A stretch of DNA of 64,000 bases from Acidobacteria bacterium 13_1_20CM_3_53_8 (GTDB lineage: Bacteria > Acidobacteriota > Blastocatellia > Pyrinomonadales > Pyrinomonadaceae). This document shows, in pieces, positions 1,139-60,716 of the stretch. The position numbers were made by a program, and so were the translations under genes. The notes beneath the pieces were generated by a model, which saw nothing but the letters and a program-made list of their open reading frames with translations, was not told where the DNA came from and did no database searches. The stretch spans positions 61,966-125,965 of the forward strand of contig MNJR01000027.1 in the NCBI GenBank assembly GCA_001920415.1, given 5' to 3'. Within the stretch, counting starts at the first letter, position 1. Each line of letters begins with the position of its first letter.

Positions 1139-3580
1139 ATGAGCAATCTATGGCAAGACGTGCGTTATGGTTTCCGCAGACTTCGTAAAAGTCCATCGTT
1201 TACCGTCATCGCAATCATTTCGCTCGCGCTCGGCATAGGCGCGAACGCAGCCATCTTCAGTCTTGTTAGCACTGTGCTGCTCAGACCCCTTCCGGTCGAG
1301 CGTCCCGAACAACTCGTGGAAGTTTACGGCACGCTGCATAACGGCGCGGATTACACCATTCAGTCTTACCAGAACTACAGAGATTATCGTGACCGAAGCG
1401 GTGATGTTCTATCAGGACTGATTGCTTACAGGTTTGCGCCTATGAGTCTGAGCAATCAGGGGAACAACCAGCGCGTCTGGGGCTTCATCGTGTCTGGAAA
1501 TTACTTCGACGTGCTTGGCATCAAGCCTGCACTGGGACGTTGGTTTCTGCCTGAAGAAGATCAGACGGAAGGCTCGCACGCGGTCGCAGTGATGAGCTAT
1601 GGCTGCTGGCAGCGGCGCTACGGAGGAGATTCTTCGATCATCAACAAGATGATCACTCTCAATGGTCGCTCCTTCACTGTGGTTGGCATCGCGCCCAAAG
1701 GTTTCAACGGGACTGAGATTGCATACGGGTCGGAACTGTTTGTGCCTACGATGATGGCGAAAGCGATTGAGCCGGGCAGCGACTGGCTGGACAGTCGCAA
1801 CGACGACAATCTCTTCGTGCTCGGAAGATTAAGACCGGGTGTGACACGCGCGCAGGCAGAAAGCGCACTCGAAGCCATAACGCTTCAACTGGCTAAAGAG
1901 CATCCGAACGAGAACGAAGGTCGTGGAGTTCGCCTGATGACGCCGGGGCTTTTCATCCCAGAGATACGAAACGCTGTCATAGGCTTTGCTGGCGTGCTGA
2001 TGGTCGTGGTCACGCTTGTACTCCTTCTGGCCTGCGTTAACATGGCGAATCTTCTGATGACGCGCGCAACCGAAAGGCGCAAAGAGATTGCGATTCGTCT
2101 CGCTCTGGGCGCGAGCCGCATGCGGCTGGTGCGCCAGCTTGTGACCGAAGGCGTACTGCTCTCTCTTGCAGGAGGCGTGTGCGGGTTGTTGCTGGCCGCG
2201 TGGATTAACGATCTGGTTGCGGCTATAAAACTTCCAACTGACATCGCGCTCGTCATGGACTTGCGGATTGACTGGCGCGTAGTGGCCTTCACGCTTGCGG
2301 TTTCCCTACTCTCCGGCATCGTGTTCAGCCTGCTTCCGGCGCTTCAAGCATCCCGTCCCGAACTCGTGCCCGCGTTGAAAGACGAGGCTTCAATGGGCGG
2401 ATTCCGTCGCTCGCGCCTCAGAAATGCTCTGGTCGTCGTGCAGGTTTCGCTCTCTCTTGTGCTCTTGATTTGCGCTGGCCTTATTGTAAGGGGCTTGCAG
2501 GCCGCACAATCAATGCGCCCGGGCTTCAATCCCGACAACGCTGTTGCGCTATCGTTTGACGTTGGTCTTCAAGGCTACGACGAAACACGTGGGCGCGAGT
2601 TTCAGAAGCAAGTCCTGGAGCACGCGCAAACTGTTCCGGGCGTCGCTTCGGTTGCTTTAACTACGACAGTGCCTCTCTCGCTCGATTACAGCTTTACAAC
2701 AATCTACATCGAGGGGCAGCCGTTCACGAGCGGTAGCAATTTACCGCAGGCCGTTCCGAACGATGTCACCCCAGATTATTTCCGCACGATGGAAATCAAT
2801 TTGCGCGGGCGCGACTTCACAGAGCAGGAGAACCGACGGGAATCGCGCGTTGCTATCATCAACGAAACGTTCGCGCGAAAATTCTGGCCCGGTCAGGACG
2901 CCATAGGTCGTCGCTTCAACTTCGGTGGGCCAACCGATCCGTTCTGGGAAGTGATAGGCGTGGCCGCCGACGGCAAGTACAACTCTTTGGGCGAAGACCC
3001 CAAGCCAGCCTTTTATCGCCCGCTGCTGCGCGACTACAGCAACAATGTGACTCTGGTTGCGCGCACTAATGGTGATCCGCGCTCGGCTATCACGGGCTTG
3101 CGCCGCGAGATAGAGAGCCTTGACCCGAATCTGCCGCTCTACAATATAGAGACGTTGACAGAGCACATGAACCTGCCGCTATTTCCGGCTCGCATAGCCG
3201 CTACGGTCTTGGGCAGTTTCGGCCTACTTGCCCTAACACTTGCGACCATAGGCATCTACGGCGTGATGAGTTACGTCGTGGCGGGGCGAACGCGCGAGAT
3301 AGGCGTTCGCATGGCTCTGGGCGCGCAGAGGCGAGATGTGCTCAAACTTATTTTGAGTCAGGGAATGGTGCTGGCCTTGATAGGCATAGGCATAGGACTC
3401 TTAGCAGCCGCAGCCGTCTCGCGCATCATGAGCAGCCTGCTCTACGGAGTGAGTCCGACAGACCTTATAACCTTCGCGCTCATCGCACTGCTTTTATCTC
3501 TGGTCGCACTGCTGGCCTGTCTTATACCTGCGCGCAGGGCTACGCGCGTTGATCCTATGGTCGCGCTTCGTTACGAGTAA
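1139..3580 (+). CDS. ADOP-type FtsX/MacB-like permease 2
   Basis: Full-length permease of 813 residues. The first membrane segment is at about 20-45, followed by a periplasmic MacB-PCD-like domain. Three membrane helices follow around 280-400 (ACVNMANLL, then the EIAIRLALGASR coupling-helix motif). A single helix near 435 (SLSLVLLICAGL), a second periplasmic domain and a last three-helix FtsX block complete it; the coupling motif recurs as EIGVRMALGAQ. The start has GACGAGG about seven nt upstream. The duplicated half-and-half layout and missing ATPase define an ADOP. With the permeases at 12391 and 19362 it shares a slightly different N-terminal domain (SYQNYRDYRDRS type) from the 3716 and 6159 copies. 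Confidence 0.93.
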   Translation: MSNLWQDVRYGFRRLRKSPSFTVIAIISLALGIGANAAIFSLVSTVLLRPLPVERPEQLVEVYGTLHNGADYTIQSYQNYRDYRDRSGDVLSGLIAYRFAPMSLSNQGNNQRVWGFIVSGNYFDVLGIKPALGRWFLPEEDQTEGSHAVAVMSYGCWQRRYGGDSSIINKMITLNGRSFTVVGIAPKGFNGTEIAYGSELFVPTMMAKAIEPGSDWLDSRNDDNLFVLGRLRPGVTRAQAESALEAITLQLAKEHPNENEGRGVRLMTPGLFIPEIRNAVIGFAGVLMVVVTLVLLLACVNMANLLMTRATERRKEIAIRLALGASRMRLVRQLVTEGVLLSLAGGVCGLLLAAWINDLVAAIKLPTDIALVMDLRIDWRVVAFTLAVSLLSGIVFSLLPALQASRPELVPALKDEASMGGFRRSRLRNALVVVQVSLSLVLLICAGLIVRGLQAAQSMRPGFNPDNAVALSFDVGLQGYDETRGREFQKQVLEHAQTVPGVASVALTTTVPLSLDYSFTTIYIEGQPFTSGSNLPQAVPNDVTPDYFRTMEINLRGRDFTEQENRRESRVAIINETFARKFWPGQDAIGRRFNFGGPTDPFWEVIGVAADGKYNSLGEDPKPAFYRPLLRDYSNNVTLVARTNGDPRSAITGLRREIESLDPNLPLYNIETLTEHMNLPLFPARIAATVLGSFGLLALTLATIGIYGVMSYVVAGRTREIGVRMALGAQRRDVLKLILSQGMVLALIGIGIGLLAAAAVSRIMSSLLYGVSPTDLITFALIALLLSLVALLACLIPARRATRVDPMVALRYE

Positions 3581-53029: not shown

Positions 53030-53042
53030 CAGAAGAAAAGCG

Positions 53043-53155
53043 GTGACAGGTGACAAGAAACGGTTTTAAGTCTTTAGTTTTCAGTTTTCAGAAAGAAGAG
53101 CAGGAAGCTTTTAACTAAAAACTGAAAACTAAAAACTCTTCTTGTCACCTGTCAC
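53043..53155. repeat. nested heptad hairpin (GTGACAG outside, AAAACTG inside)
   Basis: Outer arms GTGACAGGTGACAAG and complement; inner arms TTAGTTTTCAGTTTTCAG against AAAACTGAAAACT units. The loop AGAAAGAAGAGCAGGAAGCT matches the elements at 12257 and 54139. It lies after the TonB receptor gene. Confidence 0.87.
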
Positions 53156-53233
53156 TGTCTTTATGGCTCTCCTCTCTTTTGAATTTCAACGATAGGCTTT
53201 GGCATTCGAGCTTCCGATGTATAGCTTTTCAAT

Positions 53234-53576: not shown

Positions 53577-53960
53577 TCAGCCCGCTTGCCCACCAGAGCT
53601 ATCAGCCATGACATTCAAACGTATATCGTAATGCTTGATCTTTGAGTTCAGAGTCGTCACCTTCAGATTGAGAAGCCTGGCCGCGCGACGCTGATGACCG
53701 CCCGTGTGCGCTAGCGCGCTTTCTATCAGGTCAATCTCGAAGCGACGCACTTCGTTGTAAAAATCTATGCCTTCGCTTACATCCATGTTTCGGACTTCAC
53801 CGAGCGAGTGAAGCTCGTGCAAGAGTCGCACTGTCATCTGCCGCAGGCTATGAACTTTGTCTGCGCCGCCGAGACTTTCTTCCTTATCTTTCGCCTCTTC
53901 AGTTTTCGCCACCTCTTTCAGATGATGAACACGCTGTTCGAGATTTGCTCTGGCTTCCAT
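53577..53960 (-). CDS. Fis-type HTH protein 1
   Basis: Predicted 127 residues, with AGGAGG upstream. The N-terminal half is charged and probably coiled; the C-terminus is a Fis-type HTH, VRRFEIDLIESALAHTGGHQ followed by RRAARLLNLKVTTLNSKIK. There is no receiver or AAA+ domain. It is paralogous to the protein at 56863-57315. Stand-alone Fis-type domains bind DNA and usually act as accessory regulators. A LytTR-type direct repeat (54091-54119) lies about 130 nt upstream. Confidence 0.85.
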   Translation of the reverse strand: MEARANLEQRVHHLKEVAKTEEAKDKEESLGGADKVHSLRQMTVRLLHELHSLGEVRNMDVSEGIDFYNEVRRFEIDLIESALAHTGGHQRRAARLLNLKVTTLNSKIKHYDIRLNVMADSSGGQAG

Positions 53961-54090
53961 CTTACAACTCCTCCTAGATTGAATCCTCGTTTCTGCCTGG
54001 AGCTTCTGAAACTTCGCTCAGAAGAAATAGGTTTGGAACCTAATCCTTCGACTATTTATACGCAGATAGTTTTGCCTACAGAGAGGTTTT

Positions 54091-54119
54091 GTGACGGATG
54101 GGCGCGCGGTTGTGACGGA
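54091..54119 (-). promoter_or_regulatory. putative LytTR site upstream of Fis-type gene 1
   Basis: On the minus strand two TCCGTCACA boxes are spaced 21 nt start to start. Similar pairs precede the LytS-like and second Fis-type genes. LytTR regulators bind two 9-nt half-sites separated by about 12 nt, which matches. Confidence 0.6.
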
Positions 54120-54138
54120 GCGGATTGAAGAGGGGATA

Positions 54139-54228
54139 AGAGCAGTTTTTAGTTTTCAGTTTTTAGTTTTCAGAAAGAAGCGAGCAGGCTTTTCACTGAA
54201 AACTTAAAACTAAAAACTGTAAACTGTT
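54139..54228. repeat. heptad hairpin, TTTTTAG/TTTTCAG type
   Basis: Arms GCAGTTTTTAGTTTTCAG and complement. The loop AGAAAGAAGCGAGCAGGCTT matches those at 12257 and 53043. It ends two nt before the stop of the LytTR regulator and may terminate both convergent or downstream transcripts. Confidence 0.85.
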
Positions 54229-54230
54229 CT

Positions 54231-55013
54231 TCAGAAGACTTTCCCCAGCGCTTCCTGTAGACGCTCGCGGTAGTTGCGCGAGAGAGTTAGCTGCGTGCCG
54301 TCTTGCAGCAGTATGTGGTACTCGCCATGAAACCAGGGCTGTAGTTCCTGAATGCGATTGAGGTTGATGATGGAAGAGCGGTGTATGCGCAGGAATTTCT
54401 TCGGATCGAGCTTGCTTTCAAGATTGCTGATGGTCTCGCGTATGAGGTGCGACTTTTTTCCAGTGTGAACGGAGACATAGTTGCCCTCGGCTTCAATCCA
54501 GTCAATCTCGTCCGTTTCAAGAAAGAAGATTCGCCCGCCGGATTTTATAACGAGTCGTTCGAGGTAGTTCGATTCGGCCTTGAGTTCTTCCAGAAGAGAG
54601 AGTATGCGCTCGTTCATCTGACCGTTGCGCTCGCGCAGGATTTGCGCTTTGGCTCGCTGCCATGATGTCTCGAATCGCTCGCGGTCGAAAGGCTTTAGGA
54701 GATAATCGAGCGCGTGCACCTCGAACGCGCGCACGGCATATTGGTCGTAGGCCGTGACAAAGATAATGTGCGGCATCGTCCCAACCGTCTTCAACGCTTC
54801 CAGAACCTCGAAGCCTCCGACTTCCGGCATCTGCACGTCCAGGAAGATAAGGTCGGGCGCGCTCGTCTGAATTGCTTCGACGGCCTCGTGACCGTTCACA
54901 CACTCGCCCACAATCTCAACTTCCGAGTCGCGCGCCAGCATCTCTCGCAAGATGACGCGCGCCAGCGGCTCGTCGTCAACGATCAGGGTGCGAATCTGCG
55001 TAGCTTCCCCCAT
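54231..55013 (-). CDS. LytTR-family response regulator
   Basis: Predicted 260 residues. The receiver domain (about 6-120) has LIVDDEPLARV, Asp in LIFLDVQMPEVGGFEV and Lys in LLKPFDRERF. A helical linker leads to a LytTR DNA-binding domain (about 150-258): RIFFLETDEIDWIEAEGNYV, then FLRIHRSSIINLNRIQEL and LTLSRNYRERLQEAL. Partner of the kinase at 55151. The direct-repeat boxes found upstream of nearby genes fit this domain. Confidence 0.93.
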   Translation of the reverse strand: MGEATQIRTLIVDDEPLARVILREMLARDSEVEIVGECVNGHEAVEAIQTSAPDLIFLDVQMPEVGGFEVLEALKTVGTMPHIIFVTAYDQYAVRAFEVHALDYLLKPFDRERFETSWQRAKAQILRERNGQMNERILSLLEELKAESNYLERLVIKSGGRIFFLETDEIDWIEAEGNYVSVHTGKKSHLIRETISNLESKLDPKKFLRIHRSSIINLNRIQELQPWFHGEYHILLQDGTQLTLSRNYRERLQEALGKVF

Positions 55014-55150
55014 CAGTGCATTACCTGTTTTTTTAATGGTCTAAAGATTCGAGCCGCGCGCGGCCACAGCTATCCCTTAAAAAAGGAACACCGCAAAGCT
55101 TATGGTTGTGGCAAATAACTTGTACGCTCTTGAGATTCGAGAGTTTAGGC

Positions 55151-56290
55151 TTAGCGTTGTCCGTTCCCGGCAGGAATCTCAATCGTCACTATCATCCCGC
55201 CATCAGGCGCGTTCTCGATTACGAAGCTGTGATCTGCGCCGTAGAGACGGTCTAGACGCTTCTGCGTATTGGCCAGACCGAGTCCTTTACTGAAAAGGCT
55301 CTCGACCGTACGGCTTGCCGAAAGCCCCGGGCCATTGTCTCTTACGCGAATACGAAGATGACCGTCACACTGTTTCGCCTGAATGTTCAGATGACCTGTA
55401 GAGGAGCGCGGGGCTATGCCGTGGCGTATGGCGTTTTCTACGATGGGTTGGAGTAGCAGGTTGGGGACTTTGGTTTCGAGGGCTAGAGGGTCTATGTCAA
55501 TCGTGGTCGTGAGACGATCCTGAAAGCGTATACGCTCGATTTCAAGATAGCATCTCAAAAACTCCATCTCCTGTTGAAGCGTCACCTCCTGCGTGCCGGA
55601 GTTTTCCAGAGTGAGACGCAGGAAATCGCCCAAGCGAGTAATCATGCTGCGTGCGGCTTCCGCGTCACTGTTCAAAAGCGCAGAGATGGAGTGTAGCGTG
55701 TTGAAGAGAAAATGTGGGTGAAGCTGCATCTTCAGAGCTTGCAGTTGAGCCTGCGAGAGTTGTGTTTCCAGTTGCGAGGCGCGCAGTTCGCCCTGACGAT
55801 AGCGTATGTAATAGCCGAAAGCGTAACCGGCCAGCGCTATGAGAAGATATATACCCATTCCTTCGCTGAAATTTTCTACGACGAAGCGCAACAGATGCTC
55901 AAATAGAAACGGCCTGCCCTCGCGCAAGCCGTAGTTTAAGTAAAGAAGTATGTTTCCCAGCGCTGTTACTACCACGCTCAGGGCTATGCTTATTGGAAGA
56001 TGAACGAGCGCTACGCGCAGCCAGTTCTGCCGCTCTATGGGGAAACGGCGGACGAGCCATAGCACCAGAGGCGTTGCCGGAATCCACACGTAAGCCCAGA
56101 CCATCTGCACGTAGAGCGCTACGGAGAGCATAACTGGGTTTTGAGAACGAAAGGCAGTGAAGTAGAACTGCGCTGTGAAGACCAGACCGATGAAAGTCCA
56201 TATGGCCCAGATGAGCGCAAGCTGTCCCCAGCGACGCTCCCACCATCGCCTGACTTTCACACCCTCACTGGCGAAATCTCTATCTTCCAT
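55151..56290 (-). CDS. LytS-like sensor histidine kinase
   Basis: Predicted 379 residues. Four membrane helices occupy about 18-155, without a large periplasmic loop. A coiled segment is followed by the His_kinase motif MQLHPHFLFNTLHSISALL and an ATPase domain with LQPIVENAIRHG, VRDNGPGLS and GLGLANTQKRL. This is the LytS/YehU family that pairs with LytTR regulators; the regulator gene follows after 137 nt. A triple copy of the direct-repeat box lies 130-190 nt upstream, suggesting autoregulation. Confidence 0.93.
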   Translation of the reverse strand: MEDRDFASEGVKVRRWWERRWGQLALIWAIWTFIGLVFTAQFYFTAFRSQNPVMLSVALYVQMVWAYVWIPATPLVLWLVRRFPIERQNWLRVALVHLPISIALSVVVTALGNILLYLNYGLREGRPFLFEHLLRFVVENFSEGMGIYLLIALAGYAFGYYIRYRQGELRASQLETQLSQAQLQALKMQLHPHFLFNTLHSISALLNSDAEAARSMITRLGDFLRLTLENSGTQEVTLQQEMEFLRCYLEIERIRFQDRLTTTIDIDPLALETKVPNLLLQPIVENAIRHGIAPRSSTGHLNIQAKQCDGHLRIRVRDNGPGLSASRTVESLFSKGLGLANTQKRLDRLYGADHSFVIENAPDGGMIVTIEIPAGNGQR

Positions 56291-56421
56291 ACTTTAAATT
56301 CACGAGGACAATTTTATGGGCAGAAACCCCCGAAAGCTCTCTATGAAGCGACTTAAACATTAAAGGCCGGACGAGCGCAACTCGCGATTAAGCTTCCAGT
56401 GATGCTCGGATACAACTGTTA

Positions 56422-56476
56422 CGTGACAGGAAGGAAAGAGAGATGACGAAACGGCCTCGTGCTGTGACGAAACGGT
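56422..56476 (-). promoter_or_regulatory. putative LytTR sites upstream of LytS-like kinase
   Basis: Three TGAC-containing boxes at 56424, 56444 and 56465 are spaced 20 and 21 nt. On the minus strand the two best read CCGTTTCGTCACA and CCGTTTCGTCATC. They lie upstream of the kinase start at 56290. Confidence 0.6.
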
Positions 56477-56499
56477 TTGAGTGAGATATAGAATTTGGA

Positions 56500-56606
56500 T
56501 TCACCGCAGAGGCGCAGAGAGATTTACGCAGAGAGCGCAGAGGGTTGAATGCTGCACTGGCCTCTGCGTTCCTTCGGCGAAATACTCTGCGCCTCTGTGG
56601 TGAACT
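56500..56606. repeat. inverted repeat with CGCAGAG units
   Basis: TTCACCGCAGAGGCGCAGAG and its near-complement CTCTGCGCCTCTGTGGTGAA flank about 65 nt containing further GCAGAG units. No gene is supported in 56291-56862 apart from these elements. Confidence 0.75.
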
Positions 56607-56667
56607 TTTTAATCGCGCCCAACCTGTATAGAGCAAGTAAGAGAACGAATCCGCTCGAACTCTAATA

Positions 56668-56836
56668 CCAGATTGCAAAACAAAATAAGGAAGAGCGGGG
56701 GCAAGCCCGCCTTCCCAACCTATGAGGTTATGGAAGTTGAGCGCTTTAAATTCCAAAGCTCAAGATTATTAATCTCACTGGTATGGAAGGCGGGCTTGCC
56801 CCCGCTCTTCCTTCCTTATTTTATTGTGCAATTCGG
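56668..56836. mobile_element. MITE-like element 1, TA target duplication
   Basis: Terminal inverted repeats CCAGATTGCAAAACAAAATA and its near-complement (ending TTGTGCAATTCGG) are flanked by TA on both sides. Inside, GAGCGGGGGCAAGCCCGCCT is a strong stem repeated at both ends. No coding capacity. The TA duplication suggests mobilisation by an IS630/Tc1-type transposase, not encoded here. Confidence 0.75.
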
Positions 56837-56862
56837 TATAATTTCGGCGAAAACGCTCCAAC

Positions 56863-57315
56863 TCACTTCGCCTTCATGCGCAGTTCGGTCGAGCCGCGTG
56901 CTATCTCATCAGCATCAATTCTGTATCGTTTTATCTTAGCGTGCAGCGTTGTCACTTTCATCCCCAGAAGCCGCGCAGCCTGTCGCTGCCTGCCGCCCGT
57001 GCGTATCAGCGCCGAAAGTATTAGGTCGGATTCAAAGCGGCGCACTTCGTCGGAAAGGTTGACCTTGTTCTCCACCGTCTGCGCAGACTGTTGGCTTAAC
57101 GCTTCGACCTCTCTGAATAGCGCCAAGGTCAATATTTTCAGGGCTTGAAGCCTCTGGCTCTGCGCTATCTCGTATATGGAAGCCCGCGCACGCCTCCCTC
57201 TAACCAGTCGCAAGGCAGTGCGCATCTCTGTGTCGCGCGCGTGGCCTTCGTTTCGCTCCGCTCCAGAATCGGAGCGTGCCTGACCTTCTAAATTTTTGTC
57301 TTGATGTTCGGCCAT
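56863..57315 (-). CDS. Fis-type HTH protein 2
   Basis: Predicted 150 residues from ATG 57315 (MAEHQDKNLEGQARSD) with GAGG upstream; the longer frame runs into a MITE and is not used. The middle section is charged, and the C-terminal Fis-type HTH reads VRRFESDLILSALIRTGGRQ, then RQAARLLGMKVTTLHAKIK. Paralogue of 53577-53960. MITE-like elements flank it on both sides. Putative LytTR boxes lie about 90 nt upstream. Confidence 0.85.
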   Translation of the reverse strand: MAEHQDKNLEGQARSDSGAERNEGHARDTEMRTALRLVRGRRARASIYEIAQSQRLQALKILTLALFREVEALSQQSAQTVENKVNLSDEVRRFESDLILSALIRTGGRQRQAARLLGMKVTTLHAKIKRYRIDADEIARGSTELRMKAK

Positions 57316-57401
57316 ATCTAGCGCCTCAAAAACTTTTTCGCTCGCTGATTTTGCGCGCAGGCGAAAGTTTAGATGCGATGGATGCAGGCGCGTTGAGATT
57401 T

Positions 57402-57431
57402 TGTGACGGAAAGGCTCAGGCTTGTGATGAA
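57402..57431 (-). promoter_or_regulatory. putative LytTR site upstream of Fis-type gene 2
   Basis: On the minus strand, CCGTCACA and CATCACA boxes are 21 nt apart, the same spacing as at 54091 and 56444. Confidence 0.55.
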
Positions 57432-57484
57432 CTGGTACGCGCGCGAGCAGAGAGAGTTGCGCGAACGGAAAGCACTTGCTTATA

Positions 57485-57627
57485 CCGGATTGCAGAATAA
57501 AATAAGGTTCAGCAAAAGCTGTCCACGAAGCCACACGCGCACGACACTAAACATAGCGCCTGACTTCGTGTCGTGCGCGTGTGATTTAGTGGATAATCTG
57601 TTGACCTTATTTTATTGTACAATTCGG
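57485..57627. mobile_element. MITE-like element 2, TA target duplication
   Basis: Terminal repeats CCGGATTGCAGAATAAAATA and its complement-like right end (TATTTTATTGTACAATTCGG) match those of element 1; TA flanks both ends. The interior is a TCCAC-GTGGA hairpin (about 57519-57594) like those at 25189 and 62281, so one repeat family is nested in another. Confidence 0.78.
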
Positions 57628-57649
57628 TATTAGAATCTAGCACGGGCGT

Positions 57650-58887: not shown

Positions 58888-59322
58888 ATGCTCAAAGTTG
58901 AAGAGATGTCGAAGGGTGAGATACAGGCGCTCTTGCTGCGCGCTAACTTCGGCCATCTGGGATGCTCGCGCGACGGCCACACTTACGTCGTGCCAATGAA
59001 TTACGCTTACGATGGTGAAGACGTCTATTTTCTGACTACCGAAGGGACGAAGACGGAATTCATCTCTGCAAACTCGGAAATCTGTTTTCAGGTAGAAGAG
59101 GTGACAGACCCTGCGCGCTGGCGTAGTGTGATGGTCTTAGGCCATGCCAGAAGAATCACGCAGCAGGAAGAGGTGGAGAGCGCCATGCAACTCATTACTG
59201 AGAGCAACCCCACGCTCACGCCCGCGCTCAACAGAACAGAGATAGGCGCGTGGCATCGCGCCAACAAGATAGTGCTCTACCGCGTTCACCCCAACGCCGT
59301 CTACGGTCGCAAGACGGCATAA
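58888..59322 (+). CDS. pyridoxamine 5'-phosphate oxidase-family (FMN-binding) protein
   Basis: Predicted 144 residues from ATG 58888 with GGAG upstream. The split-barrel flavin fold is recognisable: FGHLGCSRDGHTYVVPMNYA, DVYFLTTEGTKTEFI, ICFQVEEV and SVMVLGHARRI. It is the small version of the family, often F420- or FMN-dependent or involved in stress tolerance. Substrate unknown. It stands alone between two hairpins. Confidence 0.88.
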   Translation: MLKVEEMSKGEIQALLLRANFGHLGCSRDGHTYVVPMNYAYDGEDVYFLTTEGTKTEFISANSEICFQVEEVTDPARWRSVMVLGHARRITQQEEVESAMQLITESNPTLTPALNRTEIGAWHRANKIVLYRVHPNAVYGRKTA

Positions 59323-59339
59323 AAAGTCTGGAGCCAAAT

Positions 59340-59428
59340 GGATTTTAGATTTTGGATTTTAGATTTTGGATTGGAAGAAGCGTAAAGTCTTTCAAATCTA
59401 AAATCCAAAATCTAAAATCCAAAATCAA
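59340..59428. repeat. heptad hairpin, TTTTAGA/TTTTGGA type, inverted relative to 44411
   Basis: Arms GATTTTAGATTTTGGATTTT and complement. The loop GGAAGAAGCGTAAAGTCTTT is the reverse complement of the loop at 44411-44496. The outer flanks GTCTGGAG and CTCCAGAC are paired too. Confidence 0.87.
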
Positions 59429-59444
59429 TCTGACTCCAGACTTT

Positions 59445-60716
59445 TCACCTGTTTCCAGCTTTCACGACCCGCCCGCCTTTCATCACGAACAGGACGTGCT
59501 CAAGTGCGCCTATGTCGCGCAAGGGATCGCCTTCGACTGCTATGATGTCTGCAAACTTTCCGGCTTTGACCTCTCCAATTTCGCCTTCCATGCCTAACAG
59601 TTTCGCAGCGTCCACAGTTGCTGCCCGAAGAGCTTCCGCAGATGTTAATCCTGCCTTCACCAACCATTCAATCTCACGAAAATTATGACCGTGAACGCCA
59701 GCCACTGCGTCCGAGCCTGAAACAATCCACACACCTGCGCGTTTCGCGCGCATCAAATTTTCCATGTTGTGCGCTCGCATACGCTCAAAGAGCGTCCAGG
59801 CAGATGCAGGGAAATCGAATATGTTTCTGTGTTCAAGATAATGAGTCGGAAGATAGAGCGTGGGCACTAGCGCAGTGTGATGCTCTACCATCAAGCGTAT
59901 TGCTTCCGAATCAAGGAATGAGCCGTGCTCAATCGAAGTGCAGCCGCCGCGCACAGCAGCTTTAATCGCCGCAGCCTCGTGCGCGTGAACCGCAACGCGC
60001 CTGTTCGAACGCGCAGCCTCTTCAATGACAGCGCGAATCTCGTCTGCGCTGAACACAGGCGAGCCATCATCGTACACGCCCTCAAACACTTTGATTACGT
60101 CCGCGCCCTCGCGTATTCGCGCGCGCGCGAACTCGCGCACGAAGGTGAGACGGACACTTTTGCTGGCGTTCGGCGGCAGAAAATTTGCGAGGAGCGGAAG
60201 GCCAGATGCCAGCACTCTTGGGCCAACCGTAGCGCCCAGGTTTATCTCGTCTCGAAGGCGCAAGTCAACCAACTCGATTGCGCCCATGTTTCTAATGGTC
60301 GTAAAGCCGGCATTCAAAGTCGCACGCGCGTTCTCTTCCGAGTAACGCAATGTGACTTCAGGTGAAGAATCGTTTGATGAACCAAAGTGTCCGGCTTCGT
60401 CAAAGTGGTAAGTGATGTGCGTGTGCGCGTCAATCAAACCGGGAAGCAATGTAGCATTGCCCAGATCAATCACGCGCGCACCCGATGGTATCGTTAAGTT
60501 CTGGCCGACCGCAGTTACCTTTTCGCCGTCAACTAAGACGACAGGGTTATTGATTATCTGGCCGCCGCTTAGGTCAACAAGGCTGCCCGCGCGAATCGCT
60601 ATCAGTTTTGCAGTCGCGCCGGATTCGATGCGCTGCGCACGCGTGCAGGTCAGCACGCAGAAGATTAAAGCAAGCGTGAATAGAGCAAAGACAACGCGCA
60701 CAGGTCTTCTCTTCAT
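59445..60716 (-). CDS. exported amidohydrolase
   Basis: Predicted 423 residues from ATG 60716, which overlaps the Nudix stop as ATGA. The signal peptide VVFALFTLALIFCVLTCTRA is followed by a composite beta/TIM-barrel fold: LPGLIDAHTHITYH (HxH metal ligands), VAVHAHEAAA, CTSIEHGSFLD and SGSDAVAG, and it ends in the usual VKAGKFADIIAVEGDPL. The layout is that of imidazolonepropionase/prolidase-like amidohydrolases. The substrate is probably a periplasmic cyclic amide or dipeptide. Confidence 0.9.
   Translation of the reverse strand: MKRRPVRVVFALFTLALIFCVLTCTRAQRIESGATAKLIAIRAGSLVDLSGGQIINNPVVLVDGEKVTAVGQNLTIPSGARVIDLGNATLLPGLIDAHTHITYHFDEAGHFGSSNDSSPEVTLRYSEENARATLNAGFTTIRNMGAIELVDLRLRDEINLGATVGPRVLASGLPLLANFLPPNASKSVRLTFVREFARARIREGADVIKVFEGVYDDGSPVFSADEIRAVIEEAARSNRRVAVHAHEAAAIKAAVRGGCTSIEHGSFLDSEAIRLMVEHHTALVPTLYLPTHYLEHRNIFDFPASAWTLFERMRAHNMENLMRAKRAGVWIVSGSDAVAGVHGHNFREIEWLVKAGLTSAEALRAATVDAAKLLGMEGEIGEVKAGKFADIIAVEGDPLRDIGALEHVLFVMKGGRVVKAGNR

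Follow-up and report, generated by a model that had tools for sequence, protein, structure and literature searches.

A putative local LytTR-box circuit formed by a LytS-type kinase, a LytTR regulator and two small HTH_8 proteins in an acidobacterial genome

The locus described here lies in a window of 64 kb (the whole stretch of DNA analysed) on contig C9 of a 6.1-Mb draft genome, G000, and comprises, in order of transcription on the minus strand, the genes for a small Fis-type protein (Fis-type 1), a LytS-like kinase, a receiver-LytTR response regulator and a second small Fis-type protein (Fis-type 2). Fis-type 1 (56863..57315, 150 aa) carries a C-terminal HTH_8 domain (E 9e-12), as does Fis-type 2 (53577..53960, 127 aa; E 9e-10), which also has a conserved N-terminal helix (32-54). 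Between them are encoded a LytS/YpdA-like membrane sensor histidine kinase (55151..56290, 379 aa) with His_kinase (PF06580, E 2e-27) and HATPase_c domains and, beside it, the regulator (54231..55013, 260 aa), whose Response_reg (E 9e-27) and LytTR (E 3e-30) domains score above cut-off. The FhRhHRS DNA-binding motif defined for LytTR domains (PMC4227749) is present in this protein as FLRIHRS. Its closest LytTR relatives come from metagenome-assembled genomes of Pyrinomonadaceae and other Blastocatellia (Acidobacteriota), and the pairing of kinase and LytTR regulator is retained in most of them. Against the NCBIfam equivalogs for BtsR and LytR the regulator scores 192.8 bits (cut-off 246) and 184.4 bits (cut-off 375), respectively, and its 30% identity to Escherichia coli YpdB falls short of a close match; it works like BtsR, LytR and YpdB yet belongs to none of them.

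Three of the four genes are preceded, on the minus strand, by 13-nt boxes with the consensus CCnYTYCGTCACA. The Fis-type 1 promoter carries CCAGTTCATCACA (57435-57423) and CCTTTCCGTCACA (57414-57402) with a period of 21 nt, the kinase promoter CCGTTTCGTCACA (56475-56463), CCGTTTCGTCATC (56454-56442) and CCTTCCTGTCACG (56434-56422) with periods of 21 and 20 nt, and the Fis-type 2 promoter CCGCTCCGTCACA (54123-54111) and CCCATCCGTCACA (54102-54090), again with a period of 21 nt. A first-pass annotation of this DNA had named two small Fis-type proteins, a LytS-like kinase and a LytTR gene, all now matched by domain, and had noted CGTCACA-like repeats at 20-21 nt in three upstream regions; the repeats are indeed there, with the refinement that the kinase promoter has three boxes and not two, the third not having been separated before. 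With scores of 33.1, 32.8 and 31.7, the three promoters are the best tandem sites of the whole 64-kb window, the highest-scoring one outside the locus reaching 18.3. A LytTR target site comprises two repeats in direct orientation, each of 9-11 nt, with a spacer of 11-13 nt (PMC4847170), and the conserved 21-nt period of the boxes conforms to this geometry. The regulator gene has no box of its own upstream and is presumably cotranscribed with the kinase gene.

Other repeated elements occupy the intergenic regions of the window. Two of them, of about 180 and 155 bp (56661-56841 and 57479-57634), have common inverted ends of 26-30 nt (TAATACCxGATTG..AAAATAAGG) enclosing different inner palindromes; four copies of these ends occur in the window versus none expected by chance, and the elements are MITE-like or terminator-like. 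Iterated TTTTGGATTTTAGA or CAGTTTTTAGTTTT units also build up long inverted repeats, rich in A/T, between genes at 59322-59445, 54138-54231 and 53036-53162.

We searched the 6.1-Mb genome for the pattern TYCGTCAC-N13-TYCGTCAC. Allowing at most one mismatch, five sites were found, three of which are the window promoters; under random placement of five matches, the chance that three fall within 3.35 kb is approximately 2e-9. With at most two mismatches the genome contains 42 matches versus 23 for the control and, below the top matches, this list is mostly made of GTCAC-rich repeats or of scattered sites near the control level. Because the two-mismatch matches approach the control count and many of them are repeats, the regulon of this genome appears to be local: the scan for paired boxes, suggested when the repeats were noted, revealed an enrichment at the locus, but a dispersed CGTCACA regulon is rejected, pairs outside the locus being near the control number. 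The paralogous LytTR loci of the same genome have weak pairs only, scoring 16.8 (L197) and 15.4 (L198). The former (L197 2691-6527, contig C44) is a LytS-LytTR paralogue pair that follows a gene for a metallo-beta-lactamase-fold protein, and it is this gene that has the weak box pair upstream; the group is possibly a second autoregulated operon.

The boxes are conserved in relatives. A weight matrix (PWM) built solely on the seven window boxes was run on 21 Acidobacteriota loci selected by LytTR protein similarity, retaining pairs with a score above 20. It detected, on the gene strand, 20 pairs at a spacing of 21 and 0-3 at every other spacing between 10 and 44, with a mean of 0.04 pairs in shuffled sequence. 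The pairs in relatives sit before the kinase gene and just downstream of the LytTR gene, and three-box kinase promoters also occur in several of them. Among 162 genomes of the class, our own included, a strict pattern yielded 40 matches versus 3 for the reversed control. LytS/LytTR loci account for 24 of the 40 and, outside our own genome, for 21 of 37 (two in G081 counted through sequence identity to G080).

The targets that follow the boxes are variable and include small HTH_8 proteins, the kinase operon, an amino acid permease and a secreted protein with a HELGH motif; a few dispersed box-pair targets exist in relatives. The HELGH protein belongs to a metallopeptidase-like family of about 250 aa that has no Pfam match and is encoded next to LytTR with boxes upstream (L005 7237-7992, L006 5514-6281, L010 3583-4305, L203 5253-5936, and also L011 and L066); a search of our own genome, run without a positive control, gave no match. 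In four genomes of a single genus, a 21-nt box pair precedes a sigma-70-family (ECF-like) gene (L275 4359-4988 and L276 1871-2554, and also in G091 and G111; Pfam checked in two), with no LytTR gene within the 4-10 kb fetched.

The boxes also keep a fixed distance to the predicted promoters. On the minus strand, the predicted -10 hexamers are TAAACT for Fis-type 1 (57366..57371, 30 nt after the proximal box), CTTAAT for the kinase (56387..56392, 29 nt after the third box) and TATAAA for Fis-type 2 (54055..54060, 29 nt after the proximal box). Across the 40 aligned sites, in the choice of which the -10 hexamer played no part, a TATAAT-like hexamer peaks exactly 29 nt past the proximal box, with a mean of 3.4 out of 6 matches as compared with 0.9-2.3 elsewhere, and TAxxxT is found at this offset in 14 sites and in at most 4 at any other. 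Assuming a 17-nt spacer to this -10, about 6 nt separate the end of the proximal box from the expected -35 downstream of it, where sequences are degenerate.

The boxes are probably bound by the LytTR regulator and not by the Fis proteins, because they precede a permease gene where the LytTR gene has no Fis gene beside it and because their presence drops as LytTR diverges. In L019 and L021 the permease gene lies beside LytTR, and the DNA fetched around it contains no small Fis gene. Boxes accompany 19 of the 25 regulators with at least 62% identity and about 10 of the 85 with 50-61%, in a hand tally for which phylum is a confounder. Close LytTR relatives in L008, L015, L016 and L184 are without good box pairs. 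An HRS-to-NRS change in the LytTR motif might explain weak boxes, as the three NRS regulators have weak pairs, but some HRS regulators also lack good ones. Alternatively, the small Fis-type proteins might bind the boxes and autoregulate the cluster while the LytTR regulator acts elsewhere, as could be imagined from the two out of three window sites that precede Fis-type genes and from G024, a 91% complete genome where no LytTR domain was found and a lone small Fis gene has several boxes, an exception that reflects either an assembly gap or a binder other than LytTR. We regard this as very improbable, since the boxes precede not only the permease gene but also kinase genes, since they form direct repeats and not the dyads to which HTH_8 dimers bind, and since the TCCRA-N4-TYGGA dyad, the candidate site for the parent activator, is unrelated to them in sequence. 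Even less credit can be given to the idea that the repeats arose by chance or belong to low-complexity DNA, such as dispersed copies of intergenic repeats. Simple repeats are indeed frequent between the genes of this genome, with GTCAC-rich ones in the two-mismatch list, but the spacing peak and the conservation in other genera already refute this explanation, and the fixed -10 distance and the enrichment at the locus also speak against it.

If LytTR is the binder, promoter geometry suggests the direction of its effect: with a hexamer at 29 nt, the poorly conserved -35 would follow shortly after the proximal box, so that a protein bound there would sit where activators contact RNA polymerase, from which we infer that LytTR activates rather than represses. 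It could instead bind the same boxes and repress from near the -35, as does CoxC from three direct repeats that are two helical turns apart and overlap this element (PMC11347149), and the kinase promoter does carry three boxes. We consider repression unlikely given that the proximal box would stop short of the -35 by those 6 nt or so, that a degenerate -35 would suit an activator, and that YpdB activates (PMC4847170) and AgrA binds upstream of its promoters (PMC4227749).

Comparable systems are known from other bacteria. The yhjX promoter, under the control of E. coli YpdA/YpdB (PyrS/PyrR), is alike in the LytS/LytTR pair and in the direct repeat of 21-nt period, the YpdB site being GGCATTTCAT-N11-GGCATTTCAT (PMC4847170), and its repeat core TTTCAT is found also in many acidobacterial boxes (CCRYTTCATCACA). 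However, the gene under YpdB control encodes a transporter, whereas in the acidobacterial system two HTH_8 proteins and the kinase's own operon, in some cases with three boxes, are the nearest outputs. Staphylococcus aureus AgrA, acting at P2/P3, is similar in its FhRhHRS-type LytTR domain, in the direct repeats immediately before weak promoters and in the autoregulated locus (PMC4227749), but differs in box sequence, sensor and outputs, and its peptide signal genes are absent at the acidobacterial locus. The operators of CoxC and RcoM1, in which three direct repeats are set two helical turns apart (PMC11347149), resemble the kinase promoter. Nevertheless, both proteins are one-component sensors and CoxC is a repressor with repeats overlapping the -35, in contrast with the two-component system of the window. 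Our search of the open-access literature for LytTR in Acidobacteria or with small Fis proteins found no study of such a circuit and no characterised LytTR regulon for the phylum.

The small proteins share an HTH_8 fold with E. coli Fis and with the C-terminal domain of NtrC-type activators. They reach 29.9 and 19.3 bits against the NCBIfam Fis equivalog (cut-off 99 bits) and thus share with it the HTH_8 domain only. The structural model of Fis-type 2 shows Fis-like helices at 67-111 with high confidence, together with the conserved helix 32-54, and its nearest solved folds, at weak E-values, are Fis and the DNA-binding domains of NtrC4/NtrC1. Within our own genome, which has 31 HTH_8 matches, the domains of Fis-type 1 and 2 score 149-177 against that of one NtrC-type activator, whereas none of their scores against the rest exceeds 89. 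This activator (receiver-AAA-HTH_8, G000:C9:40.4 kb), the C-terminal HTH_8 of which is the best match to both small proteins, has its HTH_8 domain present in 40 out of 40 relatives searched. In a tree of 83 HTH_8 domains, all small proteins form one clade (91/93) nested in the activator family (100/96), a result to which we give moderate weight because alignment columns are few. A single-clade origin nonetheless emerges from this tree, and the small proteins appear to be paralogous to the DNA-binding domain of a single conserved Blastocatellia NtrC-type activator, and they look like detached copies of that domain. They differ from E. coli Fis in constituting a separate clade in the acidobacterial activator family and in having their own N-terminal helix. 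Fis itself was reportedly held by Morett and Bork in 1998 to derive from NtrC.

The kinase gene that precedes the NtrC-type activator has upstream a TGGAAC-N5-TTGC element, of -24/-12 form, common to four genomes, with tandem TCCRA-N4-TYGGA dyads roughly 150-190 nt further upstream in the same four. In our own genome the dyads and the sigma-54-type promoter TGGAACATTGCTTGCT (L202 about 2920-3140; G000:C9:32921-32952, promoter near 33.1 kb) lie before a PAS/GAF sensor kinase gene and are kept in several relatives. At one mismatch or fewer, the tandem dyad occurs once in this genome and in a few relatives, several times beside the operon of the activator; in the window, TCCRA-N4-TYGGA matches in the vicinity of the small Fis genes are at chance level. 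The conserved tandem dyads suggest an enhancer of the NtrC-type activator and, hypothetically, a target of the small proteins, the nesting of which in the activator clade points to the circuit as a possible modulator of this sigma-54 system. From domain similarity and a dyad seen in a handful of genomes, it is conceivable, although rather doubtful, that the LytTR system controls the sigma-54 pathway via stand-alone DNA-binding domains that would occupy the dyads before the kinase operon of the activator, damping or reshaping its output.

Overall, we estimate at about 80% the probability that this locus is a local LytTR-box circuit in which the LytTR regulator activates the kinase-regulator operon and the two flanking small HTH_8 genes. 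The LytS-type kinase would phosphorylate the regulator encoded next to it, two or three molecules of which would bind the CCnYTYCGTCACA direct repeats, with their 21-nt period, just upstream of a weak -35, switching on three sigma-70-type promoters. The kinase-regulator operon would be among the targets of its own regulator, resulting in positive autoregulation, and the genes for both small HTH_8 proteins would be activated on either side. In a last and much less certain step, these proteins would occupy the enhancer dyads of the NtrC-type activator and thereby connect a sigma-54 operon with the LytTR signal. The first-pass annotation had already read the boxes as LytTR sites, a reading now strengthened by site geometry, conservation of spacing 21 in LytTR loci, the fixed -10 distance and permease targets without a Fis gene; the circuit it proposed, of a sensor, LytTR and two Fis-type proteins with autoregulation, is well supported by the sequence evidence if taken as a local module and not as a dispersed one.

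The LytTR box, its spacing and its promoter geometry thus become concrete for the Acidobacteriota, which makes LytTR targets predictable in many uncultured acidobacterial genomes. The output is unusual, as it consists of proteins resembling free-standing DNA-binding domains of an NtrC-type activator that is itself widely conserved, and these proteins would be made under another signalling system. If true, this would represent a simple and testable case of cross-talk between the sigma-70 and sigma-54 modes of regulation.
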